From: Flavobacterium eburneipallidum
GTDB lineage: Bacteria; Bacteroidota; Bacteroidia; Flavobacteriales; Flavobacteriaceae
Direction: 5' to 3'
Length of the DNA stretch: 64,000 nt
NCBI RefSeq assembly: GCF_027111355.2
Contig: NZ_CP114291.2
Span: 1,798,001-1,862,000, forward strand
The notes below the pieces were generated by a model. It made no database searches, was not told the origin of the DNA, and saw nothing but the letters and a program-made list of their open reading frames with translations. The position numbers were made by a program, and so were the translations under genes. Within the stretch, counting starts at the first letter, position 1, and each line of letters opens with the position of its first letter. Below, piece by piece: positions 4,662-30,328 of the stretch.

Positions 4662-6476
4662 TTATTCTTTTTTCAATTCATTAATCACATCAGACGAAAC
4701 TTTGATTACTGTTCCATGTCGAGTTCCTTTTGGGAAGCTAACTTGTTCTGAAATATCTTCCCAACCTTTAGCGGTTTGTTTTACTGCACCGTATTTCTTT
4801 TGAGTGTATTTATCAAAATAAACTATCCATTCGCCATTAATTTGGATTGCCGTTGGTCCTTCTGCCCAATACTTTCCTGTTATTGGTTCACTAGCTTTGG
4901 TGTATGGGCCTGTAAGCTTTTTGCTTGTAGCAACTTTTAAATTTTTTTGAACTGGAACTTTAGTTTCATCTTTCAAAAACATTATAAATCCATCTTTACC
5001 TTTTAGAATTGAAGAATCGATGACATTAAAACCAGGCTCGTACAATAATTTTGTTTTACTGAATTTTTTAAAATCTTTGGTAGTCACATAATAGATTCTG
5101 TGATTGTATCCATCTTCTTCCTTTGAATCAGTTTCGGTAAATTTACCTTTGATGGTAGAAGCCCAATAAATCATATATTCTTTTGATTTTTCATCATAAG
5201 TAATTTCGGGAGCCCAAGTATTTCTGGCATTTTCTTCGTGAGCCATCACTGGAATAAATTCTTGTTTCGACCAATGAATCAAATCTTTGGAAGAAGCATA
5301 ACCAATGCCTTTATCTGTCCAACTCACAGTCCAAACCATGTGGTATAATCCATCGCCACCTTTGATAACACATGGGTCACGCATTAATTTGTCTTTGCCT
5401 ACTTCTGGAGTCAAAAAAGAAGCGTCTTTCTTTAAAGTTTCCCATTTGTAACCGTCTTCGCTATAAGCCATGTGTAATCCGTCTTCGCCATTTCCTTTGA
5501 AATAAGTAAAAACATAACCATCGGGTTTTAAAGTGAAATTATTAGCAATCAACCATTTTTCGCAAGCGTTTGGCCAATATTGATTGGTTCCTTTTACTCC
5601 AAGACCAAAACCATGTCCACCATTTTCATAAATGTGCATTTCGGCAGGAACTTTTTGATTTTTTAATGCTAGGTAATAATTGATACTATTTTCTACAGGA
5701 ACAGCTTTGTCATCTGTGGCGTGAACCAAAAAAGTTTTTGGAGTTTCAGCAGTAATTTGTTTTTCATTCGAATATTTTGCAATACTTTCTGATGAAGCAT
5801 TTTTGCCTATTAAATTGTTTTTAGATCCTTCGTGTGTAATACCATTTTCCATGGAAATTACTGGATAAATCAAAATAGAAAAATCAGGACGAGCACTAAT
5901 ATTGTCTTTACTATCATACACTTTATCGTTGTAATGAGTAGCCAAAGTAGAAGCCAAATGGCCTCCAGCCGAAAAGCCCATAATACCCACTTTGTTTGGG
6001 TTGATTTTCCATTTATCAGCATTGCGTCTAACCAATCGGATGGCTTCTTGAGCATCTTGAAGCGGTGCGATAGATTTATCAGTCATGATGGCATCGCTAG
6101 GCAATCTGTTTTTTAATACAAAAGCATTTATGCCTAAAGTGTTAAACCATTCGGCAACTTTATATCCTTCTTTATTGATAGCCAACATTCCATAACCACC
6201 ACCCGGACAAATAATAACTGCTGATCCATTAGACTTTTTTGGGTCTGCTAAATAAACAGTCAGTGTTGGCTGGCTTACATAACGAACACCGTTGGCAACA
6301 CCACTTTTATCAGCATCTATTTTTTCTAAATATTCTTTAGACTGAATTTCTCCGGGAATTTTGTCCCACAAAGGGATGATTTCTTTGTTTTGAGCAAAAG
6401 ACGGAATGCTCATTCCTAATACTACAAATGCTACTACAAATCTAATTTTGTTATTAGCGTTACTTAATTTTTTCAT
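4662..6476 (-). CDS. Secreted esterase (alpha/beta hydrolase) fused to a GH43-like beta-propeller domain
   Basis: 604 residues from the ATG at 6474-6476 (MKKLSNANNK, signal peptide ending near SFAQ). N-terminal half (about 35-310) is an alpha/beta hydrolase of the carbohydrate-esterase/BD-FAE type: PGGGYGMLA oxyanion loop, GFSAGGHLAS nucleophile elbow, HATDDKAVPV (Asp) and ENGGHGFGLG (His). The C-terminal half (about 315-600) has five-bladed GH43-type landmarks: MRDPCVI, NTWAPEI and AEGPTAI, which supply the usual Asp, Asp and Glu. Inferred role: deacetylating a pectic side chain while trimming it. The start overlaps the end of the GH2 gene by 17 bp, the last position of a four-gene operon. 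Substrates are not deducible from sequence. Confidence 0.82.
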   Translation of the reverse strand: MKKLSNANNKIRFVVAFVVLGMSIPSFAQNKEIIPLWDKIPGEIQSKEYLEKIDADKSGVANGVRYVSQPTLTVYLADPKKSNGSAVIICPGGGYGMLAINKEGYKVAEWFNTLGINAFVLKNRLPSDAIMTDKSIAPLQDAQEAIRLVRRNADKWKINPNKVGIMGFSAGGHLASTLATHYNDKVYDSKDNISARPDFSILIYPVISMENGITHEGSKNNLIGKNASSESIAKYSNEKQITAETPKTFLVHATDDKAVPVENSINYYLALKNQKVPAEMHIYENGGHGFGLGVKGTNQYWPNACEKWLIANNFTLKPDGYVFTYFKGNGEDGLHMAYSEDGYKWETLKKDASFLTPEVGKDKLMRDPCVIKGGDGLYHMVWTVSWTDKGIGYASSKDLIHWSKQEFIPVMAHEENARNTWAPEITYDEKSKEYMIYWASTIKGKFTETDSKEEDGYNHRIYYVTTKDFKKFSKTKLLYEPGFNVIDSSILKGKDGFIMFLKDETKVPVQKNLKVATSKKLTGPYTKASEPITGKYWAEGPTAIQINGEWIVYFDKYTQKKYGAVKQTAKGWEDISEQVSFPKGTRHGTVIKVSSDVINELKKE

Positions 6477-9423
6477 AAAATTCAATTTCTACAATGCGTA
6501 ATTGTCCTGTTGCATTTACTGCTACTGGGTCTTTAAATAAGTCTAAATCTTTGTTTGCTTCTACTTCAACAATGTTGCTGAAACCATCTTTTTCGGTATT
6601 GGTTCCAATCAATTCTATTTTGATCGTTGAAGCTAAAATTGGTTTTAATGCAAGTGTAATATAGCCTAAACTTTGCGCTGTATTACCACTGTAAACTTCT
6701 TTTCCGTCGGCTAAAATACGAATTGGATAGCTTTTAGAACGCCAACCTGTTAATTTAATTACGCATTCGTTTACTATCGAAGGTTTTGAAAGGGTGTAAG
6801 TGATTGCAGCATTACTGTTGCCATTATTTTTCCATTCTGTTAATTCGTTGTCGTCATAACTTTTGAAAGTGTCGTTGTTATTAGAAAGTGATGATGCACT
6901 TGCAATAGTAACCGTATTTCTTCTTACTGTATAAGAAGGCGTTTTCGGCGTTGCTCCACGGTCTAAATTAGGACTTAAATTCACACCCGGAATCGCTGTT
7001 GAAAGTCCGTTTTGTGTTTTTATTGCTCTACTTTCAAATGTTAATTCTGCCGATTTTAATCCTTTGGCTGTAGCCAAAATTTTTATTTTTCCGCTTTGAA
7101 TCATCGATTGTAAAAGCACTCTGTTGATACCATTTTCTACAGGTAAATCTTTAGAAAGAATATAGTTTTTAGGGCCTTGTGCAATTCCGCCTAACCAAGT
7201 TGCTGGACCTTCAACAGCAAATGAAATTAAATCATTGCTAATTGGGTAACGTTGACCATTTTTGTCCACTACTTCTACGTCAATTAAAGCAACATCGGCT
7301 CCATCGGCTAAAAATCCATTGGGTTGTGTTGTTAATTTTAGTTTGATTTCTGATGGTTCTCCAGCAGTTGTTTTGGAATCTTCACTTAAAATTTTTCCTT
7401 GCTCGTCGTATCCAATAGCTTTTATACTTCCTTTTTTAAAGCCGATATTTTCAAAAGTAAAAAGAAACTCGTTGCTTTGTTTTCCAAAACCTTGGGAGAT
7501 TCCATTGATGAAAAGTTCTACTTTTTTGGCTGTCGAAACTACATAAATATTTTTAATAACATTTTCAGCATAGTTCCAATGTCCCATAATGTGGGTGCGG
7601 TATTTTTCGATATCTACCCAGCCATCCCACATCACCTGATGTGCCCAAAAGCCGTCTTTTGGAATTCGCATCGCATCCACTTCGCCACTGGTTCTATAAT
7701 TAGATTCTCCTCTATGATGTGTATTCGAATCCGAAAAAATAATATTTACACCACCCGAATTGACTCTTTTTCCAGTTCCAGGTCTTTCTTGGTAATAATC
7801 GTTCCAGCGAATGATGTTTTCAATCGCATGACGATCTTGGTTGTGGTTGTAATCTTCGGCAGGTTTATCACGATATAATGGACCGAAACCTTCTTTATGA
7901 AAAGGAGGAGAGAATTCGTCCCAATATTTTCGCATGCCTTCGTCTCTGGAATATTCGGTTGCCCATAATGGAATATGAGCACTTTTATTTATGTACAGCA
8001 TTTCGCCACCATATTCAGCTACTTTGCTATCCAACATTTCACGAGACCCAATCGCTCTTCCGCCATTCGGATCATACAAATTTCGAATGTCTTTCATTTC
8101 TTGCATGTGTTCCTCGCTGATGGATTCATTGCCACATTCGTAGAAAATAATACTTGGATTGTTTCGGTTGTAAATAATGGCATCACGCATTAAATTAATT
8201 CGCTGAATCCATTGTTCGCCTTTGGCATCTTTTTCGGCATCGCCAGCGGGCATGGCTTGTAATAATCCCACTCGGTCGCAGGATTCTATATCTTGTTTCC
8301 AAGGCGTAACGTGCATCCAGCGCACTAAATTCCCATTGCCTTCTACGATTAATTTATTACTAAAATCACTCAACCAAGGCGGAACCGACATTCCGATTGC
8401 TGGCCATTCGTTGCTGGTTCTTTGGGCATAACCTTTTACTTGAATCACTCGGTCATTCAACCAAATTTCTCCATTTTTGAATTCCGTTTTTCTGAAACCA
8501 GTTTTGGTAGAAACTTCATCAATTACTTTTCCATCTACTTTTAAAATGGTTTTTACCGTGTATAAATAACCGTAACCCCAACTCCAAAAATGTAAATTAT
8601 TGACCAAACTTTGAGCTTTAATAATTTTAGTTTCGTTGGGCAAAAGCGTTGTTTTTTCTCCTGAAAAAGAAGCGATTTTTTTGCTATCGATATCTTCAAT
8701 TTCGATATTATATTCTATGTTTTTAGCCGTTTCAAATTCATTTCTAACTTCTGTTTCAGCATGGATAATGGCATTCTGATTCTGAATGTTGATGTCAGAT
8801 GGATAAACATAAACTCCAGTCGTTTTTAGGTTCGAATAGAGTGGAAGTGTCTGATAAACTTTGCTCGTAATATGAAGAAAAACATTTTTTGGAATTCCAC
8901 CATAATTAGCATTAAAATTGGTGTTGTTCCATTGATAGGTCGAGTTTGTGGCTATTTCTCGGTATTTCCAGTCGTTGTCAATTCGTAAGGCAATGGTGTT
9001 TTCTTCAGGAAAGGGTTTTACAATTGTAGAAATATCAAAGCCAAAACCCATTACGCCATTTTCATGAAGGCCTACTTTTTGTCCGTTTACATAAATAACG
9101 CCGCCTTGACGAATGCCTTCAAATTCTATAAAAATCTTATGGTCTTTGATTCCTTTTGGAAGTTTGAATTTTTTTCGATACCAAACAATTCCAGTGGTAT
9201 GATTATCGATATCTTTTTCGAAAGCTTCTTCCTGATTGTAAGCATGCGGAAGCGTCACTTTTCTCCAGTTGGTATCATCAAAAACAGGAGATTCCGCATG
9301 TTGGGAATCTCCTGTTTTTAATTTCCAATCCGAATTGAAATTGTATTTTTCTCTTTTAAATTCTTGTGAAATAACAGCCGAACTAAAAAGTAGATAAGCA
9401 AAAAGCAAAAGGATTTTTTTCAT
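6460..9423 (-). CDS. Glycoside hydrolase family 2 enzyme (beta-galactosidase/beta-glucuronidase type)
   Basis: 987 residues with signal peptide (MKKILLLFAYLLFSSAVISQ). Order: GH2 sugar-binding jelly roll (about 25-190), Ig-like domain (200-310), TIM barrel (315-600), DUF4982-like and further Ig-like domains (620-790), and a C-terminal NPCBM/discoidin-like jelly roll (about 840-985). The acid/base is probably E433 in ECGNES and the nucleophile E490 in WATEYS. Family activities are exo-beta-galactosidase, glucuronidase and related; the locus suggests beta-linked galactose or uronate on rhamnogalacturonan. Third operon gene, 6 nt after the GH105 stop. A perfect 16-bp inverted repeat lies inside its 5' coding region. 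Confidence 0.87.
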   Translation of the reverse strand: MKKILLLFAYLLFSSAVISQEFKREKYNFNSDWKLKTGDSQHAESPVFDDTNWRKVTLPHAYNQEEAFEKDIDNHTTGIVWYRKKFKLPKGIKDHKIFIEFEGIRQGGVIYVNGQKVGLHENGVMGFGFDISTIVKPFPEENTIALRIDNDWKYREIATNSTYQWNNTNFNANYGGIPKNVFLHITSKVYQTLPLYSNLKTTGVYVYPSDINIQNQNAIIHAETEVRNEFETAKNIEYNIEIEDIDSKKIASFSGEKTTLLPNETKIIKAQSLVNNLHFWSWGYGYLYTVKTILKVDGKVIDEVSTKTGFRKTEFKNGEIWLNDRVIQVKGYAQRTSNEWPAIGMSVPPWLSDFSNKLIVEGNGNLVRWMHVTPWKQDIESCDRVGLLQAMPAGDAEKDAKGEQWIQRINLMRDAIIYNRNNPSIIFYECGNESISEEHMQEMKDIRNLYDPNGGRAIGSREMLDSKVAEYGGEMLYINKSAHIPLWATEYSRDEGMRKYWDEFSPPFHKEGFGPLYRDKPAEDYNHNQDRHAIENIIRWNDYYQERPGTGKRVNSGGVNIIFSDSNTHHRGESNYRTSGEVDAMRIPKDGFWAHQVMWDGWVDIEKYRTHIMGHWNYAENVIKNIYVVSTAKKVELFINGISQGFGKQSNEFLFTFENIGFKKGSIKAIGYDEQGKILSEDSKTTAGEPSEIKLKLTTQPNGFLADGADVALIDVEVVDKNGQRYPISNDLISFAVEGPATWLGGIAQGPKNYILSKDLPVENGINRVLLQSMIQSGKIKILATAKGLKSAELTFESRAIKTQNGLSTAIPGVNLSPNLDRGATPKTPSYTVRRNTVTIASASSLSNNNDTFKSYDDNELTEWKNNGNSNAAITYTLSKPSIVNECVIKLTGWRSKSYPIRILADGKEVYSGNTAQSLGYITLALKPILASTIKIELIGTNTEKDGFSNIVEVEANKDLDLFKDPVAVNATGQLRIVEIEFYEKIK
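9280..9319. repeat. Perfect 16-bp inverted repeat inside the GH2 coding sequence
   Basis: Arms at 9280-9295 and 9304-9319 are exact reverse complements (core AACAGGAGATTCC) with an 8-nt loop. Each strand has an A-run before and a T-run after the stem, so it looks like a bidirectional intrinsic terminator placed in codons about 35-48. Confidence 0.8.
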
Positions 9424-9429
9424 GAATTT

Positions 9430-10554
9430 TTATTTCATTTTATAGATTTCATAGCCAGCTAATAAGTAGCAACCCAATCCATAATCTTCGAAATCAGGAA
9501 TTTTATCATAGGATAATGGTTGTCCATCTTTTGGTTCTTTTCCGGTAGATTGTAAAAATCCTAAAAACCCATTATCGTGCAAAGCATCTTTGTTTATAGC
9601 ATTCCACGCTTTTTGAATCACTGGTAAATAAGTTTCTTTTTTCAAAATTCCGCTGTTGATTCCATAAGCCATACCGTAAACGAATAAGGCAGTTCCTGAA
9701 GTTTCTTTTTCGCCAAAATGTGTTGAATCGTGTAAACTTACATTCCAAAAACCATCAGGACGTTGTACTTTTACTAAAGCGGCTGCCATTGCTTTTAAAT
9801 CATTAACATATTGTGCTCTGTGAGGTGCATTTTCTGGAATAATGGTCAGCACTTTTGCCAAAGCGCCAATTACCCAACCATTTCCACGGCTCCAGTAACA
9901 ATCCTCGCCGTTTGGTTCTTTGTACGGAGGATCAAAATCGGCATCACGCCACCACAAGCCATCTTTTGGGTTGTAAAGTCCGTGATCGCCATGATTATTT
10001 CTGGAATACATGTACATTTCATACATTTTTTCGAAATAACGGTTGTCTTTTTCAAGAACACCCATTTTAGCAAAAACTGGCATTCCCATTTGAATAGCAT
10101 CAATCCAAGACCAATCGTCTAGTTGAGGCGTATTCAAAAGCATGTCCATATTGGCTTTTGTGTTTTTTAATTTTTTTGCATCTGGTTCTAATTTGTACAA
10201 GTCAATATAGGTTTGTGCAGCGCAATAGTTATCGGCATTGCGGGTGGTATTTCCGCCATTAAATCCCCATTTGTGAAATTCAGCCCAATCGTAAGCATAC
10301 TTGTAATAGGCTTCTTTCGGGAAAATTTCATGCAAAGCCATTAGTCCTTCATAATAAACGCCACGTGTCCAAATATTACTTGGGCGTTCTTTGTTAGTAA
10401 TAATTGTTTTACCAGTTTCTGGCCATTTTTGCATGAAATAATCATTGGCAAGCATCATTTGTTTTAGCACTAATTTTTTATCGAATGGCTGTTGTGCATT
10501 CGATTTTGTAGCTGTAATTAAGGCTATAGCGAAAAATAAAACTAACTTTTTCAT
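9430..10554 (-). CDS. GH105 unsaturated rhamnogalacturonyl hydrolase
   Basis: 374 residues from the ATG at 10552-10554 (MKKLVLFFAIALI, signal peptide to about residue 21). (alpha/alpha)6-barrel of family GH105, YteR/YesR-like: W-T-R-G-V-Y-Y-E-G near residue 62, WSWIDAIQMGMP with the likely catalytic Asp at 152, and WSRGNGWVIGAL at about 228. The family removes the 4,5-unsaturated uronic acid left at the non-reducing end by polysaccharide lyases, releasing 5-keto-4-deoxyuronate, the substrate of KduI encoded at 24.7 kb. The open frame runs 30 codons further upstream but into the GH106 end, without a signal peptide. 23 nt after GH106. Confidence 0.92.
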   Translation of the reverse strand: MKKLVLFFAIALITATKSNAQQPFDKKLVLKQMMLANDYFMQKWPETGKTIITNKERPSNIWTRGVYYEGLMALHEIFPKEAYYKYAYDWAEFHKWGFNGGNTTRNADNYCAAQTYIDLYKLEPDAKKLKNTKANMDMLLNTPQLDDWSWIDAIQMGMPVFAKMGVLEKDNRYFEKMYEMYMYSRNNHGDHGLYNPKDGLWWRDADFDPPYKEPNGEDCYWSRGNGWVIGALAKVLTIIPENAPHRAQYVNDLKAMAAALVKVQRPDGFWNVSLHDSTHFGEKETSGTALFVYGMAYGINSGILKKETYLPVIQKAWNAINKDALHDNGFLGFLQSTGKEPKDGQPLSYDKIPDFEDYGLGCYLLAGYEIYKMK

Positions 10555-10577
10555 TTTTGAGTATCGTTGTTTAGTAA

Positions 10578-13379
10578 TTAATTTTGTTGTTTTAAAGGTG
10601 TAATTGTAATTGGACCTAATAATCCCGAAGGCATTGGAGCCCATTTTGTAGCGTCGAATTTTTTATAATCTTTGTCAACCATATTGATTTCGTAGAATAT
10701 TTTCCATTCTTCGCCTTTTAATTCTTTGTTGCGAATTCTGTTGGCAGAAAGATTGGTTACCTGAATTTTTAAAGTGTTTTTTCCTGATTTTAATTTACCA
10801 AGATTCAATTGATAAGGAACTGACCAAGCTGTTCCAACATAAACGTCATTAATCCACACTTTAGCACTTTCGCGAACATCGCCTAAATTCAATTGCCAAT
10901 TTTCAGTTTTGCTATTTGGATTATCAAATTGCAAGGTATAAGTTGCGCTTCCTGAAAAAGCTTCGGCTTGCGGACTTAATTTTGTCCAAGACTCTAAAGT
11001 AGAAACGGTTGCAGTTGGAGGCAATTCTGGTCCACCTTTATCAAAATTGATTTTCCAATTTCCTTTTAACGGAATAGAAGCTGCAACAGGTTCAAAATAA
11101 TTCCATTTTTTTTGCGAAGCTGTATTTTCAGTTTTCAAAAAGTACGATTGTCCTGGTTCTATTTTTATTTTGACCAAAGTGTTTTTGGCCGATTTTTGAA
11201 CGATTGCATTTCCAAAATCTCTGTTTAAAGGGTCAAAAATTATTACTTCTTTGTTACCAACTTCTATCGGAATAAAAGTATCAATGGTTTGAGGCGTGTG
11301 GTTTACTAGATAATACACTTTTTCGCCATCCACATTTCTTCTGATGTATTTTAAACCAGTATTAACTAATGTTTCAGGATAGATTTGAGCTTCTTCTAGA
11401 GTTTTGAAAATATCCGAAGTAGGTTGAACTAATTCTTTGTTAGATGCTAAAAGCGCTTTCATTTCGGCTTCTTGTTTTTGAAACTCATTAAATCCAGGAA
11501 CCGATTCTGGTAAGCCTTCAAAGATGATTTTAGCTCCTGCTTTTTGTAATTCGATTAGTTTTTGCAAAGTAGCCAAAGGCATTTTTTGGCAAGCAGGAAT
11601 CACTAATGATTTGAAAGTTCCACCTGGTAAAATGATTTTTCCGTCAATCACTTTGGCTTCTAAAATGAAATTATCAGAAATAAAATCGACTCCATATCCT
11701 TTTTTCATAAGGTTTCTGGTACTGTCATAAAAAGCAGTTCCGTGCAACCATTGTGATAATGAATGGATTTTATATTCAAAAAATAAAGTGCCTTTTTGGT
11801 ATTTGTCCCAAGTGTCAAAAATTGGCCAGTACAACAATATTTCATTGTCAGGTTTTCCTTGTTGTAACATTGATTGGCAGTTGGCAATATACGAAAACAA
11901 GGAAGGAGCATCTTCCCAAATGTTATTATTAGCATTAAAATTTACTGATGCGTAAAATTGCCATCCCGGCCAAACGGCTCTTTCAGGCGAATAGGTAGAA
12001 CCGTGAAGAAAAATATGATTGATTCCGTTTAGCATCAAATCTTCGGCTTCAGGCTTGCATTGTGATAAAGCGGTTTTGAAATGCTCACGCAACCATGTAA
12101 AAGTTTCTGAAGATACCAATGGTTTTCCTGAAATATGAGCAGCAGATGAAGAGAATTTCAACATTACGGCATCGGCATCACCTTCACGAACGTCTTCTTT
12201 TTCGCGTCTAAAACCTGGAATATCAAAAGGCATAGAGCCAAAAGTTTCGCATTCTGGAATATCAGCAGATGCGTATAAGTCAATTAAATTTCCTGGAGAT
12301 CCATGGGCTTGTAATTTGGTTTTGGAGCCTTTGTTATTTGCCCATTTCGTCCAATTTTTGTCAAATTTATTCAATAATAAATCGGATAGGGTTTGTCGGT
12401 AATCACTTCTTATTCTATTACTGATAGCGTCATCAGTTTCGTTTAGTAAACGAGGTAATTGTTGTTTTAAATCATACCCTCTTCTGGCTTGGAATTCTTC
12501 GAAAAATTTAGGGGTAAAATCCGTTCCATAAACTTCATAACTGTCGTTAAAAATAGCTCTAATTTTTCCTTCACGTCCTTTGAATGCTTTGTCAAACGGA
12601 ACAACATAATCATTTAATGCTTCGTCAGAATAATGGTCTAATGTATAACCGCTTCCGCCCGGAGCTGCTCTTTTAACTTGTTGACCAGTTTTGCCACTAA
12701 AAACAGCATAAATCGTATAATCTGTTTTTTTAGCTTTCCATTTTAGTTGATTGGGTTTTGCTGAGGATGGTATTGAAACTGTTGTTCCATCAATTCCTTT
12801 GTCATTTACTTTTATCGGATCGTTTTTTAATTGATTAGTAAGATTTACATACGAACCATCATTTCCATACGCTACAACATATAAAAGTTCTGCTGGTGTT
12901 TTTTCTTTTTTATTTTCTACAACAATGCTTTTGTCAAAGGTTTCGTTTTTTTTGACTTGGTATTTTTCTACAATTAATTTGGTAGCTGCGTGTGGTAAAG
13001 TAACATGAGAACCACCATAAGGCCAACCTGTTCCTAAAACCATATCCACCTGCATGTGTAAACTATCAGCAGTTTTTATGGTATAATCAAGCATTTCTAA
13101 ATATTTTGGAGAAAGAAAATCGATAAAATTGTTTTCTTCTCCTTTTACACCATATATAGGAGTGATTTCGACACCGCCAATTCCTACTTTATGAAAATCG
13201 ATTAAACTTTTCTTTAAATTAGGTTTGTCCACAGCACTTCCCATCCACCACCAGCGAGCCCATGGTTGATTGGTATTGGTTGATTTTGGCCAAGGAGAAG
13301 GTGTAGTTTCTTGAGCAAAAGCGTTGCAAGCAAGTAAAATTGCTAATGCTATGAAAGAGGATTGTTTGTTATGTTTCAT
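10578..13379 (-). CDS. GH106 alpha-L-rhamnosidase
   Basis: 933 residues, first gene of the leftward operon. Landmarks of GH106: PWARWWWMGSAVDKPNLKKS near residue 40, GGVEITPIYGVKG, MVLGTGWPYGGSHVTLP (about 115-130), long TIM-barrel region to about 620, then beta-sandwich domains ending in a jelly roll (about 770-900). It removes terminal alpha-L-rhamnose, a backbone sugar of rhamnogalacturonan. The N-terminus (MKHNKQSSFIALAILLACNAFAQE) fits either a type I signal cut after AFA or, less likely, a lipoprotein at the Cys. Preceded by a double ACAGGA site and a TACTTTTA -7 element. Confidence 0.9.
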   Translation of the reverse strand: MKHNKQSSFIALAILLACNAFAQETTPSPWPKSTNTNQPWARWWWMGSAVDKPNLKKSLIDFHKVGIGGVEITPIYGVKGEENNFIDFLSPKYLEMLDYTIKTADSLHMQVDMVLGTGWPYGGSHVTLPHAATKLIVEKYQVKKNETFDKSIVVENKKEKTPAELLYVVAYGNDGSYVNLTNQLKNDPIKVNDKGIDGTTVSIPSSAKPNQLKWKAKKTDYTIYAVFSGKTGQQVKRAAPGGSGYTLDHYSDEALNDYVVPFDKAFKGREGKIRAIFNDSYEVYGTDFTPKFFEEFQARRGYDLKQQLPRLLNETDDAISNRIRSDYRQTLSDLLLNKFDKNWTKWANNKGSKTKLQAHGSPGNLIDLYASADIPECETFGSMPFDIPGFRREKEDVREGDADAVMLKFSSSAAHISGKPLVSSETFTWLREHFKTALSQCKPEAEDLMLNGINHIFLHGSTYSPERAVWPGWQFYASVNFNANNNIWEDAPSLFSYIANCQSMLQQGKPDNEILLYWPIFDTWDKYQKGTLFFEYKIHSLSQWLHGTAFYDSTRNLMKKGYGVDFISDNFILEAKVIDGKIILPGGTFKSLVIPACQKMPLATLQKLIELQKAGAKIIFEGLPESVPGFNEFQKQEAEMKALLASNKELVQPTSDIFKTLEEAQIYPETLVNTGLKYIRRNVDGEKVYYLVNHTPQTIDTFIPIEVGNKEVIIFDPLNRDFGNAIVQKSAKNTLVKIKIEPGQSYFLKTENTASQKKWNYFEPVAASIPLKGNWKINFDKGGPELPPTATVSTLESWTKLSPQAEAFSGSATYTLQFDNPNSKTENWQLNLGDVRESAKVWINDVYVGTAWSVPYQLNLGKLKSGKNTLKIQVTNLSANRIRNKELKGEEWKIFYEINMVDKDYKKFDATKWAPMPSGLLGPITITPLKQQN

Positions 13380-13460: not shown

Positions 13461-13468
13461 TAAAAGTA
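13461..13468 (-). promoter_or_regulatory. -7 element of the GH106 operon promoter
   Basis: TACTTTTA on the minus strand, 7 of 8 to TAnnTTTG, exactly 22 nt after the second ACAGGA of the tandem site. No TTG at the -33 position. Predicted leader is about 77 nt. Confidence 0.6.
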
Positions 13469-13490
13469 TTAGTTGTTTGTGAAATCGCTA

Positions 13491-13506
13491 TCCTGTTGCG
13501 TCCTGT
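13491..13506 (-). promoter_or_regulatory. Tandem ACAGGA operator for the GH106 operon
   Basis: On the minus strand ACAGGA-CGCA-ACAGGA (10-bp period). It matches the SusC-side site at 16 of 18 positions over AACAGGAyGCwACAGGAT and sits where the -33 box should be, as expected for an activator site. Confidence 0.65.
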
Positions 13507-13727
13507 TTTTTGTGTAATTCAAAACAATCGTTAATCAATAAGTATGCCTTTTTTTTAAATAATATTTAATTTTAAGTTCAAAAAAATAAAAAATACAAAT
13601 AAATAGATATGTTAAAATTTAGATATTACAATTTCTACTTTTGTGGCATTTTTGTATTGTGAATCAAGGGGTTGGGGATTTCTTTGAGTGAAAAAAAGTA
13701 AAGTGATATATAAGTTATTGATAATTA

Positions 13728-13743
13728 ACAGGATGCTACAGGA
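13728..13743 (+). promoter_or_regulatory. Tandem ACAGGA operator for susCD
   Basis: ACAGGA-TGCT-ACAGGA with a 10-bp period. The second copy ends 22 nt before the TAAATTTG -7 element, the same distance as on the GH106 side, and replaces the -33 TTG. Likely bound by a locus activator (AraC-type, hybrid two-component or OmpR-like); none is encoded in the window. Confidence 0.65.
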
Positions 13744-13765
13744 TGCTGTAGCTATTCTATATGGA

Positions 13766-13773
13766 TAAATTTG
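13766..13773 (+). promoter_or_regulatory. -7 element of the susCD promoter
   Basis: TAAATTTG, a full match to TAnnTTTG; the predicted start site is about 13778, giving a leader of about 29 nt before the susC ATG. Confidence 0.6.
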
Positions 13774-13806: not shown

Positions 13807-16800
13807 ATGAAAAACAAATTTAGCCTTTTGCTGGTTATAGCCTTGTTTACATTATTTCATGTATCGGGTTATGCGCAGAACAAAGTTGTTAAAGGTACAA
13901 TTACAGATATTTCAGGATTTCCTATTCCTGGAGTAAATGTAATTGTTAAAGGCACTTCAACAGGTGTTAGTTCTGATATTGATGGTAAATACTCGATACC
14001 TGCTGCTCCGGGGCAAGTATTAGTGTTTAGTGCTACAGGCTCTAAAACAGTAGAAAAAACTGTTGGAACAACTGGAGTAGAGAATGCAATTCTTACAGAC
14101 GATGTAGCTCAACTAAATGAAGTTGTAGTTGTAGGGTACGGAACTGTAAAAAAATCGGATGTAACAGGAGCTATTGCAAGAGTTAGTGCTGAAGAGCTGA
14201 CTTCACGACCAGTAAATAATGCTCTGGAGGCTTTACAAGGTAAAGCAGCAGGTGTTGATATTACAACAAACGAACGTCCCGGACAAATAGGAACTGTTCG
14301 TATTCGTGGTCAACGTTCCTTAACAGCTAGTAGCAGTCCTCTTTATGTTGTTGATGGGGTGCCATTATTATCGTCATCTTCTATTGAAACTCTTAATCCA
14401 AGAGACATTGAATCTATTGATGTATTGAAAGATGCTTCCGCAACTGCTATTTATGGTTCTCGTGGAGCTAATGGGGTAATTATTGTTACTACTAAGCAAG
14501 GTAAATCAGGCCAATTTACATTGAATTATGCAGGTACAATCAGTACAACTGATATTGTAGATCGTGCACCAGCAATGAATGCTGGAGATTATGTAACTTT
14601 TAGACGTTGGGCTGCTTACAACCTTAATCCTACTCTATACCCTCACCCTGATTCACCAACTTTAGCAAATGACAGAATTCTTTTCGATAGTGCTCTTGAC
14701 GGTCAAACATCAAGGGATAATGTCTTGAAAGGATGGGCAAGTGGAACATGGGATCCTTCTAAAGTTACTAATACAGACTGGACAGATTTTGTTACTCAAA
14801 CAGGTATTATGAATGAACACGTTATTAGTGCTAGTGGAGGTTCTGAAAAAGTAAATACCTACGGGTCAATTGGTTATTTAAGTAACGAAGGGACTCAAAG
14901 GGGACAAACTTATGATCGTTATACAGCAAAGATTAGTAATAATATAACTCCTGTAGATTGGTTTAAGTTCAATAGCTCTTTGAATGTTTCTTGGAGCGAA
15001 CAAGATTTTGGTATGTCAACTCTAGGTGGACGTAGTGGTTCTGTTCCGAATGCAATTTATGGAGCAGCAAAATCTGTTTTTAACATTGCTGTTCCTTATG
15101 ATGCTAATGGTAATTTAGTTATTAATCCAGGTGGCGAAACAGGTGTTTATACTATTATGGACGAATGGAAAAAAAGCACTCAATTGTCTCAAACCATGCG
15201 TATTTTAGGGAACTTCTCTGCTACTTTTGATATAGGTAAAATAACTAGTCCAATGAAAGGCTTGAGTTATAAAGTAAGTTTCGGTCCTGATTTTCGTCAT
15301 TGGAGAGAAGGTGTTTATATTGATGGAACTTCATCACATAGAATCAATTCAAATGGTACTGCAGGAAGAAACTTTGCACGTCTTAACAATAATCGTGATT
15401 TCTCATGGACTTTTGACAATATGTTGACTTATGATAGAACTTTTGCTGACAAACATAAAGTAGGAGCTACTTTGCTGCAAACGGCATCGGCTTGGAATAT
15501 AGAAAGTTCTACTATGAGTGCTAGTAATATTACGAACTCTTCTTTCTTATGGAATGCTTTTGGAGATATTGATTTAAGTAATCCTAACAATAGTCCTAGT
15601 ATGGGATCTGATGTTGTAAAACGTCAACTTAATTCTTATATGGCACGTTTTACTTATGGTTATGATAACCGATATTTGTTAACCATGTCAGGTCGTTGGG
15701 ATGGTGCTTCTCAATTAGCAGATGGACATAAATGGGACTTTTTTCCATCAGCTGCTTTAGCTTGGCGTTTGGATCAAGAAGAATTTCTTAAAAAAGTTAC
15801 TTGGGTTGATAATTTAAAACTTCGTTTTGGATTGGGAACAGTAGGTAACTCATCTATAGATCCTTATGCAACAAAAGGCGCCATTAATGATATTTTACTC
15901 CCTTTTAATGGGCAGTCCAATCAAATTGGATTTACTACAAATGAACCATATTACACAGCTCCAGGCGATTTAGTGGCTATGCCTAATCCTACTTTAGGAT
16001 GGGAAGTTACAACACAATATAATCTTGGAATAGATTTTGGTTTCTTCAAAAATAGAATTAATGGTAGTATTGAACTTTACAAATCAAATACTGATGATTT
16101 GTTGATGTTAGTTGCGATTCCAACAATTCTTGGATATCCTAATACTTATGCCAATGTTGGTAAAACTAGTAACAAAGGAGTTGAAGTTACCCTTAATTTC
16201 ACACCAATAGAGACTAAAGGTGGGTTTACATGGGAGACCAACTTAAATGGTGCTTGGCAAAAAGATAGAATAGATGGATTAGCTTATGGTAAGAATGATA
16301 TGCCAGACAACTCATGGTTTATTGGACAATCCATAGCAGTTCGATATGGTTTTGATAATGAAGGTATGTGGCAAAATACACCAGAAGATTTAGCCGAAAT
16401 GGTTCTTTGGAAAGCAAATGGTTATAACTTTACTCCAGGTAATGTAAGACCTAAAGATCAAAACGGTGATTACAAAATGGATGCTACTGATCGTGTAGTT
16501 GTTGGTAACAGTAATCCGAATTGGACAATGGGATGGAACAATACCTTTGATTACAAAGGATTTGAATTAGGAATAAATCTTTATGGACGTATGGGGTATA
16601 CGGCTTCATTAGGAGGAGAGGCGTTAACGGGTCGTAGTAATCAACGTGAAACGGATTATTGGACACCTACTAATACTGATGCTGAATTCCAAAAACCAAT
16701 TTTAGGTCAAGCTTCTTCAGGATCACAAGATGCTTATTCAGGACTTCTTGGATTTACAAAAGCATCATTCGTAAAAATTCGTAACATTTCTCTAGGATAT

Positions 16801-16968
16801 AACTTTCCAAAAGATCTTGCTTCTCAAATTGGATTTGCTAATCTGAAATTGTATGCACAGGCTGTAAATCCAGGTAGTATATATCAATCTGTAGATTGGT
16901 ATGATTTTGATACAAGTGCCACTTATTTCAACCGTAGTTTTGTTATGGGAGTTGAAGTTGGATTTTAA
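13807..16968 (+). CDS. SusC-family TonB-dependent outer-membrane transporter
   Basis: 1053 residues. Signal peptide to about 23 (GYAQ), carboxypeptidase-D-like regulatory domain (about 26-105: KGTITDISGFPIPGVNV, DGKYSIPA), the SusC motif LNEVVVVGYGTVKKSDVTGA near 110-130, a plug domain (about 120-235, ending RGANGVIIVTTK), then a 22-strand barrel to the terminal MGVEVGF. SusC proteins import oligosaccharides using TonB energy, with the SusD partner as lid. The pair starts 52 nt apart. From its neighbours the cargo is expected to be rhamnogalacturonan or other pectic oligosaccharides; the sequence alone cannot prove it. Confidence 0.93.
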   Translation: MKNKFSLLLVIALFTLFHVSGYAQNKVVKGTITDISGFPIPGVNVIVKGTSTGVSSDIDGKYSIPAAPGQVLVFSATGSKTVEKTVGTTGVENAILTDDVAQLNEVVVVGYGTVKKSDVTGAIARVSAEELTSRPVNNALEALQGKAAGVDITTNERPGQIGTVRIRGQRSLTASSSPLYVVDGVPLLSSSSIETLNPRDIESIDVLKDASATAIYGSRGANGVIIVTTKQGKSGQFTLNYAGTISTTDIVDRAPAMNAGDYVTFRRWAAYNLNPTLYPHPDSPTLANDRILFDSALDGQTSRDNVLKGWASGTWDPSKVTNTDWTDFVTQTGIMNEHVISASGGSEKVNTYGSIGYLSNEGTQRGQTYDRYTAKISNNITPVDWFKFNSSLNVSWSEQDFGMSTLGGRSGSVPNAIYGAAKSVFNIAVPYDANGNLVINPGGETGVYTIMDEWKKSTQLSQTMRILGNFSATFDIGKITSPMKGLSYKVSFGPDFRHWREGVYIDGTSSHRINSNGTAGRNFARLNNNRDFSWTFDNMLTYDRTFADKHKVGATLLQTASAWNIESSTMSASNITNSSFLWNAFGDIDLSNPNNSPSMGSDVVKRQLNSYMARFTYGYDNRYLLTMSGRWDGASQLADGHKWDFFPSAALAWRLDQEEFLKKVTWVDNLKLRFGLGTVGNSSIDPYATKGAINDILLPFNGQSNQIGFTTNEPYYTAPGDLVAMPNPTLGWEVTTQYNLGIDFGFFKNRINGSIELYKSNTDDLLMLVAIPTILGYPNTYANVGKTSNKGVEVTLNFTPIETKGGFTWETNLNGAWQKDRIDGLAYGKNDMPDNSWFIGQSIAVRYGFDNEGMWQNTPEDLAEMVLWKANGYNFTPGNVRPKDQNGDYKMDATDRVVVGNSNPNWTMGWNNTFDYKGFELGINLYGRMGYTASLGGEALTGRSNQRETDYWTPTNTDAEFQKPILGQASSGSQDAYSGLLGFTKASFVKIRNISLGYNFPKDLASQIGFANLKLYAQAVNPGSIYQSVDWYDFDTSATYFNRSFVMGVEVGF

Positions 16969-17020: not shown

Positions 17021-19126
17021 ATGAATAAATTTAAAAATATAGGAATTGGTCTTCTTATCCTAACAGGATTATCTTTTGGATCCTGTTCAAAAGATTTCCT
17101 TGATGAAGAACAATCAAATCGATACACGGCAGATTATTTTCAAACTCCCGAAGGACTTCAAGCATTAACGGTTTCTTTATACGGAAACATCAGATGGCAT
17201 TTTGGTTTTGAATGGTCATATGGAATCACACTTTATGGTACAGATGAGTTTACCAATGCTAATGATTTAACAAATGAATTATGGAATACTTATGACAGAC
17301 GATTAACGCCTTTTAGAGCAACTACAGCTTTAGGAGCTGCTAATGGAAATGCTACTGGACCAGAAGATCTTTGGAATCAAATGTATTATGGTATTTCTTC
17401 TGCAAATCTTATAATAGCAAATGCTGATAAAATTTCAGACTTAGCTATAAGAAACCGTTGCTTGGCTCATGCTTATTTCTTGCGCGGATACAACTACTAT
17501 CGTCTTACGGCTCAATATGGAGGTGTAGTTTTACAGACTGCGCCTGTTGTAGGGGTAGTGCGTAATTTTACTCGTTCAACTGAAGAACAGTGTTGGGAAC
17601 AAGTAATTTCTGATTTCCGTAATGCTTACAATCTTTTTCAAGGTGAAATTTATACGTATGGAAAAGGAGTTACTTGGACTAAAGCTACTGCAGCTCACTT
17701 TTTAGCTAAATCGTTATTGTTCCGTGCTTCTGAACGCAATGATGCTTGGAACAGTTCATATAAAGATGCTGATTTAAAAGAAGCTATCGCAGCTTGTACT
17801 TATGCAATTACGGCACGTGGTCCTTTGACTAGTAATTACAGTGATTTATATGCCAACTGGACAGGAGTAGATTCTGCTGCTGAACAACGAGATGAAATCT
17901 TAATGGCTGCTGGTCATAATGCAGATCCTATTACAAATGGTCGTTTTGGAAACAGAACTTACAACTATTTTGCCCCTCAATTTTCAAGCTTTGCAGGAGG
18001 TTGGGTAAGACGTGGAGTATGGATTGGAAGTATGGATTTTCAACGTTGTCGACCAACAGAATACAGTTATGCTGTTTTCAACCACGTAAATGATGCTCGT
18101 ATGTGGAAAACTTTCAAAACGGTTTATGGAGCTAATACTATTATAGCTCCTAATTCTAGAGGACTTGCTCTAGGAGATCCGGCTATAGTTATGATCTTGA
18201 ATACAAAAAATGACAATACCTACAACGGATATACTTTTGGAGCTGCAATTCAAAACCCAACATGGAAAGATGATTTTAGTCGTTTGCCAAATTGGACTGT
18301 TGGATCTCGTCAAACGCCAACCTCTGGTTCTTTGACAACAAAAGTAGGGCAGTCATCACCTAATTCATTAGTGTTGTACCAAAATGGAACGTATGTTGCG
18401 CCCAACTTTAAGAATCAACCTATTTGTAATTTCTTTGCTGGTATTAATAAGACTGATGATGGATCTCGTCAGGCAGAAAGAGGAGATTCTCGTCGTGATG
18501 TAACTATGGCTCGTCTAGGAGAAACTTATTTGGTAAGAGCTGAATGTTATGTTCGTTTAGGAGAATATGGTAATGCAATGGCTGACATCAATGTGGTTCG
18601 TGCTCGTGCGCAATGGAAAAATGGTGAAAACAGGTCTTACTATAGTGACGGTTCTCAAGCATTTGCTACTAATGCTTTGAATACAGGTGCAAACGCAACA
18701 AATTATATCAATTCAAATTTGAATATGAATACCTATTATTTGTCTAACCCAACACAACCTGTTACTACAGCAGCATCTAATTTGACATTAAGCACATTTC
18801 CAGCTAACTTACCTCCTGAAGACGAAGCTATTATTACACAAATTGGAGCTTCTAGTAACTATCAACGTGCATTGCACTTTATCCTTAACGAACGTACTCG
18901 TGAGTTACTAGGTGAATGGCAACGTTGGGAGACTTTATCTCGTACAGGAACATTAATTGCTCGTGCAAAAGCATTTAACCCTGAAGCAAGAACAAATATT
19001 ACTGCAAACAAACATGAATTGCGTCCAATTCCACAATCCTTCATTGATGGTTTGTTAAATGCTGATGGAACAAATTTGACAACAGAGCAAAAGAATGCTT
19101 GGCAAAACCCAGGTTATTTTAATTAA
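17021..19126 (+). CDS. SusD/RagB-family glycan-binding outer-membrane lipoprotein
   Basis: 701 residues with lipoprotein signal (LTGLSFGSCSKDFLDEE; Cys about 22), so it is surface-anchored. The SusD core is seen as tetratricopeptide-like helices: GALRG-type segment RCLAHAYFLRGYNYYRLTAQ (about 149), TKATAAHFLAKSLLFRASE, and the C-terminal AERGDSRRDVTMARLGETYL and FILNERTRELLGEWQRW. It is longer than most family members (about 450-650), the excess lying around 290-470. It caps the SusC barrel encoded 52 nt upstream and binds the glycan. A terminator follows the stop. Confidence 0.92.
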   Translation: MNKFKNIGIGLLILTGLSFGSCSKDFLDEEQSNRYTADYFQTPEGLQALTVSLYGNIRWHFGFEWSYGITLYGTDEFTNANDLTNELWNTYDRRLTPFRATTALGAANGNATGPEDLWNQMYYGISSANLIIANADKISDLAIRNRCLAHAYFLRGYNYYRLTAQYGGVVLQTAPVVGVVRNFTRSTEEQCWEQVISDFRNAYNLFQGEIYTYGKGVTWTKATAAHFLAKSLLFRASERNDAWNSSYKDADLKEAIAACTYAITARGPLTSNYSDLYANWTGVDSAAEQRDEILMAAGHNADPITNGRFGNRTYNYFAPQFSSFAGGWVRRGVWIGSMDFQRCRPTEYSYAVFNHVNDARMWKTFKTVYGANTIIAPNSRGLALGDPAIVMILNTKNDNTYNGYTFGAAIQNPTWKDDFSRLPNWTVGSRQTPTSGSLTTKVGQSSPNSLVLYQNGTYVAPNFKNQPICNFFAGINKTDDGSRQAERGDSRRDVTMARLGETYLVRAECYVRLGEYGNAMADINVVRARAQWKNGENRSYYSDGSQAFATNALNTGANATNYINSNLNMNTYYLSNPTQPVTTAASNLTLSTFPANLPPEDEAIITQIGASSNYQRALHFILNERTRELLGEWQRWETLSRTGTLIARAKAFNPEARTNITANKHELRPIPQSFIDGLLNADGTNLTTEQKNAWQNPGYFN

Positions 19127-25591: not shown

Positions 25592-25603
25592 GTAATCGAT
25601 TAC
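25592..25603 (-). promoter_or_regulatory. LacI-type palindromic operator before kduI
   Basis: GTAATCGATTAC is a perfect 12-bp palindrome with the central CG typical of LacI/GalR-family operators (compare TGWAANCGNTNWCA). It begins 2 nt past the -7 element and covers the predicted +1. Confidence 0.65.
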
Positions 25604-27877: not shown

Positions 27878-30328
27878 ATGTATTTCGTTGAAGTAATTTT
27901 ACCGTTGTCGCTAGCCAAAACCTTTACGTATAGTATTTTGGAAGCCGAGTATAATTATATCCAAAAAGGAATGCGAGTGGCAGTTCCTTTCGGCAAAAGT
28001 AAAATCTACACCGCTTTGGCAATCGAAACCCATGAAAATCAGCCTACTTTATACGAAGCCAAAGAAATTCATCAAATTTTGGATGAAAAACCCATTGTAA
28101 CCGAAATTCAAATCGCCCATTGGCAATGGATTGCTACCTATTATATGTGTGCTATTGGCGATGTGTATCGTGGTGCAATGCCATCGGCACTTTTGCTGGA
28201 AAGCGAAACAGTTATTTCGCAAAAACAAGAAGGCTTTGTGGATGAAAGTTTGCTTTCGGACGAAGAATATTTGGTTTACGAAGCCTTGCAGCAACAAAGT
28301 TCTCTAAAAGTTCAGGATATAATGAAAATTTTGAACAAGAAGAATATCTTTCCAGTGATTCAAAAATTGGTGGACAAAAACATTTTAGTACTTCAGGAAG
28401 AAGTGCAAGAAATTTATACGCCTAAACTCATTCGATACGTAAAATTACATTCCAAATACGATTCCAATGAAGGTTTGAATGAATTATTAGAAACGCTTAA
28501 AAAAGCCAATAAACAAAAGGAAATTGTTTTGAGTTATTTCCAATTGAGTGCTTCGGAGAAAAAGCCCATTACAGTCAAAAAACTCATTGAAGTTTCTAAT
28601 TCTACGGGTGCAATCATTAAAACTTTAATAGAAAAAGAAATTTTCGAAGAATACCATCTTCAAGTAGATCGAGTAGATTTTTTAGGAAAAAGTAAAGAAG
28701 AAGCCTTGCAATTAAGCGATGCTCAACAAATAGCTTTCGAGCAAATAAAAGAAAGTTTTATTAATAAAGAAGTTTGCTTGTTACACGGAGTAAGTTCCAG
28801 CGGAAAAACTGAAATCTACACCAAGCTTATTGAAGAATATCTTGCTACAGGAAAACAAGTCTTGTATTTATTGCCTGAAATTGCTTTGACAACTCAATTA
28901 GTTGGACGATTGCGAGATTATTTCGGAAATAAAGTGGCTGTTTTTCATTCGAAATATAGCAATAACGAAAGGGTAGAAGTCTGGCAACAAGTATTAACAG
29001 CCTCACCAAAAGCACAAATTGTCATTGGTGCGAGATCGGCTTTGTTTTTGCCATTTTCTAATTTAGGATTGGTAATTGTTGACGAAGAGCACGAGCAAAC
29101 TTTTAAACAAGCAGATCCCGCTCCCCGTTATCATGCTCGTGATGCTTCGATAGTTTTGGCAAATAGTCATAAAGCAAAAGTTTTGTTGGGTTCAGCAACT
29201 CCAAGTATTGAAACCTATTTTAATGCACAATCTGGAAAATATGGTTTTGTGGAAATTACCCAAAGATATGGTAATGTCAAAATGCCTGAAATTGAGTTGG
29301 TTGATTTGAAAGACAATTATTTCCGCAAGAAAATGACAGGTCATTTTAGTGATAATTTGATTGAAAATATTTCTAAAGCCTTGTCTTTAGGTGAACAAGT
29401 TATTTTGTTTCAAAATCGCAGAGGTTTTTCTCCTATTATAGAATGTATGACTTGTGGCCATATACCACAATGTCCACAATGTGATGTGAGTTTGACCTAT
29501 CACAAATTCAAAAACCAATTGCGTTGTCATTATTGTGGCTATTCCATGGCTAAACCAACTAATTGTCATGCGTGTTCCAGTATCGATTTGACAACAAAAG
29601 GTTTTGGGACCGAACAAATTCAACAGGAATTGGTAGAGCTGTTTCCAAATGCCAAAATTGGTCGAATGGATCAGGATACGACTCGGGGTAAATTTGGTTT
29701 CGAAAAAATTATTGATAGTTTCAAAAATCGAGAAATCGAAATTTTGGTAGGAACTCAAATGCTTGCCAAAGGTTTGGACTTTGATAATGTTAGTCTGGTA
29801 GGAATTATGAATGCCGATAATATGCTGTATCATCCCGATTTTAGAGCTTTTGAAAGAAGTTATCAAATGATGATACAAGTTTCAGGTCGTTCGGGTCGTT
29901 CCGAAAAGCAAGGAAAAGTAATTATTCAAACTTACAATGTGAATCATAATACAATTCAACAAGTAGTTCGCAATGATTATGAAGGGATGTACAAGGAGCA
30001 ATTGTATGACCGACAAATTTATCATTATCCTCCTTATTTCAAACTCATCAAACTGACATTGAAACACCGTGATTTCGATAAACTAAAAGAAGGTTCGATG
30101 TGGTTGTATCAGGTAATGAAGCAAAATTTTACTATTCCAGTTTTAGGTCCAGAAGAACCGCCAATTTCTAGAATTCGAAATGAATATATTAGAACGATAA
30201 TGATAAAAATCCCAATCAATCAGTCATTGCAAGGCACAAAAAAAACTATTCAGAAAATGCTGAATAGTTTTGAAGCAGTTGCACAATACAGAGCTATTAA
30301 AGTGTCTGTAAATGTTGATTTCTATTAG
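27878..30328 (+). CDS. priA: Primosomal protein N' (replication restart helicase PriA)
   Basis: 816 residues. N-terminal 3'-end DNA-binding domain (FVEVILPLSLAKTFTY), SF2 helicase with Walker A HGVSSSGKTE (about 304), DEEH box VDEEHEQTFKQ (about 405), the zinc-binding cysteine cluster CMTCGHIPQCPQCDVS and CHYCGYSMAKPTNCHAC (about 525-570), and motifs LVGTQMLAKGLDFDNV and VSGRSGR. It reloads the replisome at stalled forks. It ends convergently with the LytTR regulator, sharing 3 bp. Confidence 0.96.
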   Translation: MYFVEVILPLSLAKTFTYSILEAEYNYIQKGMRVAVPFGKSKIYTALAIETHENQPTLYEAKEIHQILDEKPIVTEIQIAHWQWIATYYMCAIGDVYRGAMPSALLLESETVISQKQEGFVDESLLSDEEYLVYEALQQQSSLKVQDIMKILNKKNIFPVIQKLVDKNILVLQEEVQEIYTPKLIRYVKLHSKYDSNEGLNELLETLKKANKQKEIVLSYFQLSASEKKPITVKKLIEVSNSTGAIIKTLIEKEIFEEYHLQVDRVDFLGKSKEEALQLSDAQQIAFEQIKESFINKEVCLLHGVSSSGKTEIYTKLIEEYLATGKQVLYLLPEIALTTQLVGRLRDYFGNKVAVFHSKYSNNERVEVWQQVLTASPKAQIVIGARSALFLPFSNLGLVIVDEEHEQTFKQADPAPRYHARDASIVLANSHKAKVLLGSATPSIETYFNAQSGKYGFVEITQRYGNVKMPEIELVDLKDNYFRKKMTGHFSDNLIENISKALSLGEQVILFQNRRGFSPIIECMTCGHIPQCPQCDVSLTYHKFKNQLRCHYCGYSMAKPTNCHACSSIDLTTKGFGTEQIQQELVELFPNAKIGRMDQDTTRGKFGFEKIIDSFKNREIEILVGTQMLAKGLDFDNVSLVGIMNADNMLYHPDFRAFERSYQMMIQVSGRSGRSEKQGKVIIQTYNVNHNTIQQVVRNDYEGMYKEQLYDRQIYHYPPYFKLIKLTLKHRDFDKLKEGSMWLYQVMKQNFTIPVLGPEEPPISRIRNEYIRTIMIKIPINQSLQGTKKTIQKMLNSFEAVAQYRAIKVSVNVDFY

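Follow-up and report, generated by a model that had tools for sequence, protein, structure and literature searches.

In the rhamnogalacturonan-I locus of Flavobacterium eburneipallidum, tandem ACAGGAYRSW repeats are likely to be the operators of a one-component activator of the GntR/LacI chimeric type encoded beside rhaT. The activator would be induced by L-rhamnose or an early catabolite and would act in the class II manner; its binding, activation and ligand are predictions. Positions without a contig prefix refer to the window, which is the whole stretch of 64,000 nucleotides that was analysed.

Two predicted tandem operators between the hydrolase operon and susCD

A hydrolase operon led by a GH106 gene on the minus strand and susCD on the plus strand are separated by an intergenic region of 427 bp. 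By Pfam content, the locus is assigned to rhamnogalacturonan-I use, and it is followed by genes for uronate enzymes (altronate dehydratase, mannitol-type dehydrogenase, UxaC, SDR, and KduI, all by Pfam). The features of the locus are as follows.

4662..6485, minus strand, esterase (BD-FAE) fused to a GH43-like domain (Pfam)
6460..9423, minus strand, GH2 glycosidase (Pfam)
9430..10644, minus strand, GH88/GH105-type unsaturated rhamnogalacturonyl hydrolase (PF07470; function taken from the family)
10578..13379, minus strand, GH106 alpha-L-rhamnosidase, first gene of the hydrolase operon (PF17132)
13461..13468, minus strand, -7 element of the hydrolase operon, TACTTTTA, 22 nt 3' of operator 1; predicted +1 at about 13456
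13491..13506, minus strand, operator 1, ACAGGA-CGCA-ACAGGA, ACAGGACGCAACAGGA, read from 13506 to 13491; matrix score 45.3; promoter of the hydrolase operon, predicted -50 to -35
13728..13743, plus strand, operator 2, ACAGGA-TGCT-ACAGGA, ACAGGATGCTACAGGA; matrix score 47.9; promoter of susCD, predicted -50 to -35
13766..13773, plus strand, -7 element of susCD, TAAATTTG, 22 nt 3' of operator 2; predicted +1 at about 13778
13807..16968, plus strand, SusC-type TonB-dependent transporter (Pfam)
17021..19126, plus strand, SusD-type glycan-binding lipoprotein (Pfam)

Each strand of the intergenic region carries one ACAGGA-N4-ACAGGA, both oriented outward, and the 18-mers of the two operators are identical at 16 of 18 positions, the same count as in the initial annotation. 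Both -7 boxes fit TAnnTTT(A/G), and TTG is missing from the -33 place of both promoters. None of 20000 first-order Markov copies of the 427-bp region held the exact tandem, and a tandem hexamer of any sequence occurring on both strands arose in 1 of 5000. The paired exact tandems with their 22-nt gap are far above chance, and the observation is confirmed. Allowing up to two mismatches gave 6 matches in the window where 3.0 were expected, and at least as many turned up in 11 of 100 shuffles; it is the exact sites alone that stand out from the background, not the loose matches.

The outward tandems on both strands, each 22 nt before its own -7 box, had been described in the initial annotation and are read directly from the sequence. 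Its remarks that the repeat takes the place of the absent -33 TTG and that the half-sites are one helical turn apart were supported as well, and the activator-type promoter form that it had proposed agrees with the tandem in the -33 place and the fixed layout.

Further downstream in the window, the uronate operon that begins with kduI is preceded by a TACTTTTG box and, immediately 3' of it, by a perfect palindrome, GTAATCGATTAC (25592-25603), which looks like a candidate LacI-type operator. Since the TTG start of the first open reading frame (25607) adjoins this palindrome, the real start is probably further in.

Distribution of the motif in the genome and across the genus

In the own genome, 25 matches with at most one mismatch were found, compared with 13 for the reversed control. 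Exact tandem copies were limited to three, the two window sites and one ACAGGACAGGACAGGA at C1:1605773. Copies of ACAGGACAGGACAGGA were also seen in L044 and L248, before NrtR/AraR-type regulator genes in two relatives; since like copies precede NrtR-type genes there, it is probably the site of another regulator (NrtR/AraR type) outside the ACAGGA regulon. The site matrix (training minimum score 24.5) shows the 10-bp unit ACAGGAYRSW twice, followed by a spacer that is mostly variable in sequence. A matrix scan of the own genome gave further sites, weaker than those of the window.

Score 32.7, before another T9SS protein
Score 30.9, before a fasciclin/SusCD locus
Score 29.1, before a PL11 rhamnogalacturonan lyase
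Score 16.1, before rhaT, below the training minimum
Score 15.6, before a PL9-like pectate lyase, below the training minimum

Across the genus, the promoter pattern (ACAGGA tandem, 20-24 nt, TAnnTTT) gave 120 matches in 46 of 299 genomes, and the reversed control gave 0; as the genomes are related, these and the following counts of genomes and loci are not independent events. A 20-nt gap was found in 6 of the 120 rows, and four of the five that were rechecked also have a box at 22 nt, with L236 having it only at 20 nt.

In 45 loci picked by SusC homology (L056-L100), each of the 48 distinct exact tandems is followed by TAnnTTT after 22 nt. Pairs of ACAGGA in these loci are 10 bp apart in 53 cases, with at most 3 pairs at any other distance up to 40 bp and 1 pair at 21 bp, so that the period of about 21 bp of HTCS/AraC-type motifs is not seen. 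The reversed hexamer AGGACA gave 5 pairs at 10 bp, all five within ACAGGA tandem sites. A site with at most one mismatch was present in 29 of the 45 loci, and none was found in the other 16 (12 Prevotella-labelled loci, Arcticibacter, Segetibacter, Chitinophaga, and one Bacteroidetes MAG). In the Prevotellaceae loci L072-L080, the SusC is 60-65% identical to the window SusC and the motif is missing, and HTCS-like ORFs were observed in L075, L076, L078, and L079; the orthologous transporter seems to have changed its regulator between families.

The first genes behind the sites (n = 76; duplicates with identical first 40 residues counted once, and one contig-end site without ORF omitted) most often encode SusC-type transporters (22), GH106 (17), and SASA acetylesterases (9). 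They are followed by fasciclin (4), GH78-type rhamnosidases (3), a further rhamnosidase-like protein (1), GH2 (3), oligogalacturonate lyase (2), GH43 (2), 3-keto-disaccharide hydrolase (2), and two rhamnogalacturonan-lyase families (1 each), and some of the 76 have no domain match. Two NrtR regulators, preceded by ACAGGACAGGACAGGA, are probably foreign to the regulon. In the own genome, rhaT is followed in its operon by rhamnulose-phosphate aldolase, isomerase-like, kinase-like, and lactate-use genes. Judged from gene content, the common denominator of the regulon is L-rhamnose and rhamnogalacturonan I. The searches of the own and related genomes that had been suggested in the initial annotation thus turned out in favour of the motif, with further sites before rhamnogalacturonan/pectin genes in the former and sites before pectin genes in the latter. 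The pectin-type regulon proposed there holds insofar as a conserved regulon is tied to pectin genes, but it is better named after rhamnose/rhamnogalacturonan I than after pectin in general.

A GntR/LacI chimera encoded beside rhaT

The candidate regulator gene (C1:2761437-2762474 of the own genome) is divergent from rhaT and 0.95 Mb from the window locus. Its N-terminus is a GntR winged helix (PF00392, 7.7e-12, 45.1 bits versus a cut-off of 27), and its C-terminus has the predicted fold of a GalR/LacI-type effector domain; no Pfam match to an aminotransferase domain was obtained at E 0.001, the fold there being LacI-type. The best NCBIfam match of the DNA-binding domain is PdxR, far below its cut-off. 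A search of solved structures by sequence gave matches to the GntR domain only, among them AraR and YvoA, both of which bear the name repressor. The source names of the 120 best homologs out of 5587 are mostly GntR family or YhcF, with one MngR and some hypothetical proteins.

Strong orthologs (at least 425 bits, a cut chosen post hoc at a gap in the match list) were found in 62 of 299 genomes. They are present in all but one of the motif genomes (45 of 46) but in only 17 of the 253 others, a co-occurrence that is confounded by ancestry and by rhamnose use. Such a profile alone is no proof of binding, since rhamnose-use and rhamnogalacturonan-I-use genes tend to travel together. The motif genome lacking a strong ortholog (G062) is a fragmented assembly. 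Of the 30 GntR loci with the best scores, 29 have a site before rhaT. This site differs from the exact tandem at one or two positions, mostly reads AAAGGA-N4-ACAGGA, and is followed after 22 nt by a -7 box of the form TTAnTTT(A/G), whose second base does not fit TAnnTTT. In L147, the ortholog is present and no rhaT site was found. Among the 17 ortholog genomes without the strict pattern, five are represented in the 30 best loci, and all five have the rhaT site.

Outside the genus, Tamlana (L081) has both the motif and a GntR protein with 79% identity. Arcticibacter, Segetibacter, and Chitinophaga (L093, L098, and L100) have GntR relatives with 41-44% identity, yet their SusC loci are without an ACAGGA site, and the rha loci of Segetibacter and Chitinophaga carry a CATGAYAG tandem in its place. 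For 7 of the 12 Prevotella-labelled loci, which were followed to genomes (completeness not given), no match to the GntR protein was found at E 1e-12. In 20 loci of further paralogs, a site with a score above 11 was present in 9 and missing in 11, and scores above 24.5 were reached only in L171, L177, L183, and L184, where the sites of L183 and L184 are about 9 kb from gntR. The gntR gene itself is preceded by a site in L174 and L177.

The gntR-rhaT regions of L135-L160 share a second element, conserved and palindromic in part, on the gntR side of the tandem; in the alignment it reads ACGAAATCGATTGCTAAAATA in many rows and GCAAACGTTTGC in L156. It is perhaps involved in autoregulation or is a LacI repressor site, and it could be this element, not the tandem, that is the operator of the GntR protein.

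Paralogs and half-site divergence

Two findings reach further than the shared occurrence of motif and regulator, namely the sites of a galactose paralog and the period of the rha loci. The galactose paralog is 37-39% identical to the rhamnose GntR protein, and its gene is divergent from galactose genes, which were judged galM-, galK- or galT-like from their sequence starts and their surroundings. All 20 galactose paralog loci have ACTGGT-N4-ACTGGT (at most two mismatches) with 22 nt to TAnnTTT. The exact galactose pattern was found in 114 of 299 genus genomes, with 2 control matches, and the gap is less strict genome-wide, since at least 18 pattern rows have 23 nt. In the own genome, a galactose box is located at C1:60682-60726. 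Several genus genomes hold two or three such boxes, and the galactose regulon is therefore likely to be wider. By sequence comparison, the rhamnose and galactose paralogs share the geometry and differ in the hexamer (ACAGGA versus ACTGGT).

The period was compared in 21 of 49 loci, namely those where a rha gene could be recognised divergent from the rhamnose-type gntR; 7 of them belong to the genus and 14 do not. A period of 10 was best or tied in 17 of the 21 loci and the sole best in 10; outside the genus, it was best or tied in 10 of 14 loci and the sole best in 7. The weight of period 10 was 12.8 of 21, and every other period from 6 to 16 had at most 3.0; another period was better in four loci (L214, L215, L216, and L224). 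The ACAGGA half-site has diverged outside the genus, with the half-sites in L281 and L283 reading CATGAYAG. The recognition-helix residues by group are SRDTVEKAY, SRDTVLQAY or SRDTVLLAY, and SRDTAEKGY or SRDTAEKAY, and such differences between groups are expected if the protein reads the hexamer.

A third GntR protein of the own genome, the more distant xylose paralog, has no clear tandem in its loci. Xylose-type paralogs were observed at L188:10169-11170, near C1:38200-39200 in the own genome, and in L294, L295, L297, and L298. Their conserved box ACCGGAACAGAACAGTA is downstream of the TATATTTG box in L297 and L298, which is a repressor-like place.

We lean slightly towards a Bacteroidota family of GntR/LacI chimeras that would bind as head-to-tail dimers to 10-bp tandems replacing the -33 element. 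The architecture would be one and the same (tandem, about 22 nt, TAnnTTTG), and the hexamer code would be set by the sugar (ACAGGA for rhamnose, ACTGGT for galactose, and RCATGA for rhamnose in other families) and read by the recognition helix.

Proposed mechanism and alternative regulators

The -7 box of flavobacterial promoters is reported at -12 to -5 (PMC9723704), which places the half-sites at -50..-45 and -40..-35. In the proposed mechanism, intracellular L-rhamnose or an early catabolite would bind the GntR/LacI regulator, whose two winged helices would sit head-to-tail on neighbouring helix turns at these positions. The bound winged helices would then substitute for the absent -33 contact and bring RNA polymerase to the TAnnTTTG -7 box, and a single regulator would couple rhamnose catabolism to the import and breakdown of rhamnogalacturonan I. 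We infer rhamnose or an early catabolite as the inducer from the target genes and the type of sugar-binding domain. A site overlapping -35 at a fixed distance to the -7/-10 box, a feature of class II promoters, is present at the exact tandems of the SusC-selected loci (22 nt in 48 of 48), and class II activation is preferred over repression because a fixed distance to the -7 box marks an activator that touches the polymerase.

Alternatively, the same chimera may occupy the tandem as a repressor, obstructing the -35 region until rhamnose releases it. The repressor names of AraR and YvoA, solved relatives of the DNA-binding domain, speak for this mode, as do the LacI-type effector domain and the place of the conserved box of the xylose paralog downstream of the -7 box; in the flavobacterium Zobellia, a GntR repressor governs alginate genes, as given by the title of a paper. 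A road-block, however, would not need the fixed 22 nt found at 48 of 48 sites and in 20 of 20 galactose loci, which contact with the polymerase would, and the two window promoters offer no TTG at the -33 place, so that repression is considered unlikely; the 23-nt rows of the galactose pattern and the low score of the own rhaT site weigh slightly in its favour. Control by an AraC-type or hybrid two-component (HTCS) regulator is quite improbable. In Bacteroides, an HTCS and the AraC-type RhaR are described as controlling such loci (PMC3878776), and in the own genome an AraC gene is located 20 kb from rhaT. The rhamnose motifs reported for HTCS and AraC-type regulators, however, have a period of about 21 bp (PMC3878776, PMC3870299). 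At 70% identity or more, the AraC gene is matched in 8 of 299 genomes, 7 of which are motif genomes. Counting any match at E 1e-60 raises this to 23 genomes; with 12 of the 46 motif genomes among these, the profile does not fit and the gene was rejected as the regulator. The Prevotellaceae loci of orthologous SusC, four with HTCS-like ORFs, are also without the motif.

OmpR/PhoB-type proteins bind direct repeats of 10-11 bp near -35, which suits the 10-bp tandem. The initial annotation had stated that the window contains no regulator gene, which is wrong, and one of the genes present is of the OmpR type.

30325-31020, LytTR response regulator
49080-50663, histidine kinase
50667-51371, OmpR-type regulator
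51447-52388, LysR gene

The OmpR-type gene is core (present in 120 of 121 genomes), in contrast to the promoter pattern with its 46 of 299 genomes; the gene was rejected, and a response regulator of this type on the tandem is very improbable. A DeoR-type rhamnose regulator is barely credible, even if imperfect direct repeats with a period of 10-11 bp are reported as motifs of DeoR-type RhaR elsewhere (PMC3870299). A single DeoR gene was identified in the own genome. At E 1e-60 it is matched in 10 of 299 genomes, each of them a motif genome, and its 17-kb region holds no site with a score above 8; as its profile covers 10 of 46 motif genomes, it was rejected as a general regulator. The profiles comprised one AraC, one DeoR, and one OmpR-type gene, with matches down to E 1e-60 for AraC and DeoR. 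The AraC, HTCS or LysR type of regulator put forward in the initial annotation is therefore not supported, as the tested AraC gene does not fit and the evidence for GntR is much stronger.

Comparison with known systems

GntR proteins mostly have palindromic operators, and those of AraR are palindromic as well, whereas the candidate operator of the GntR/LacI protein is a tandem direct repeat, with a partly palindromic element also in the gntR-rhaT region. The AraR subfamily of GntR is defined by the chimera of GntR winged helix and GalR/LacI domain (PMC4494728), and the candidate shares the domain layout and the role in sugar catabolism with its type, AraR of Bacillus subtilis. AraR is a named repressor, whereas the tandem direct repeats at -50..-35 fit an activator. 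The rhamnose regulators surveyed in PMC3870299 belong to the AraC, DeoR, and LacI types, and the main text of that survey makes no mention of GntR. As GntR operators are mostly palindromic and the surveyed rhamnose regulators are of those three types, we describe the system as a GntR chimera of the AraR type whose candidate operator is a tandem direct repeat at -35. Among the papers listed, judged by title or abstract start, no ACAGGA motif or GntR-type rhamnose regulator in Bacteroidota was found.

Proteins of the MocR subfamily (TauR, GabR) also have a GntR-type domain, direct-repeat operators (CTGGACYTAA for TauR), activation, and genes divergent from their targets (PMC5320631). The direct-repeat operator in a divergon is present here as a sequence layout, and the likeness is functional and not one of membership, since MocR proteins have an aminotransferase-like domain where the candidate has a LacI-type domain. 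Their repeats are two or three helical turns apart (PMC5320631), compared with one turn here. NanR, FarR, and NagQ are GntR proteins that likewise bind direct repeats (PMC4494728), but they belong to the FadR or HutC subfamilies and their effector domains are unlike that of the candidate.

The DeoR-type RhaR regulons are rhamnose regulons with direct repeats of 10-11 bp period, as here (PMC3870299), but this RhaR is of a different protein family, and the own DeoR gene does not follow the motif. In Bacteroides, RhaR (AraC type) and HTCS_Rgu likewise control rhamnose catabolism and rhamnogalacturonan loci (PMC3878776), with AraC-type domains, periods of about 21 bp, and separate regulators described for catabolism and for polysaccharide loci. 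Unlike in that system, one motif here spans both rhamnose catabolism and polysaccharide loci. At class II promoters of the PhoB/OmpR type, a tandem repeat with a spacing of about one helical turn replaces the -35 element; the layout is alike, but the sole response regulator profiled here does not follow the motif.

In Bacteroidota, polysaccharide loci are usually regarded as being under the control of sigma/anti-sigma pairs or hybrid two-component systems. Hybrid two-component control of such loci is described in PMC3878776. In Flavobacterium, a cytosolic sugar sensor seems to switch the rhamnogalacturonan-I programme jointly with rhamnose catabolism. With the rhamnose/galactose paralog pair and its equal geometry, one could test directly how direct repeats are read by GntR-type domains and by what means activators take over from the -33 element in promoters of Bacteroidota. 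The pair may also be a source of rhamnose- and galactose-responsive promoters for harmless laboratory strains of Flavobacterium.
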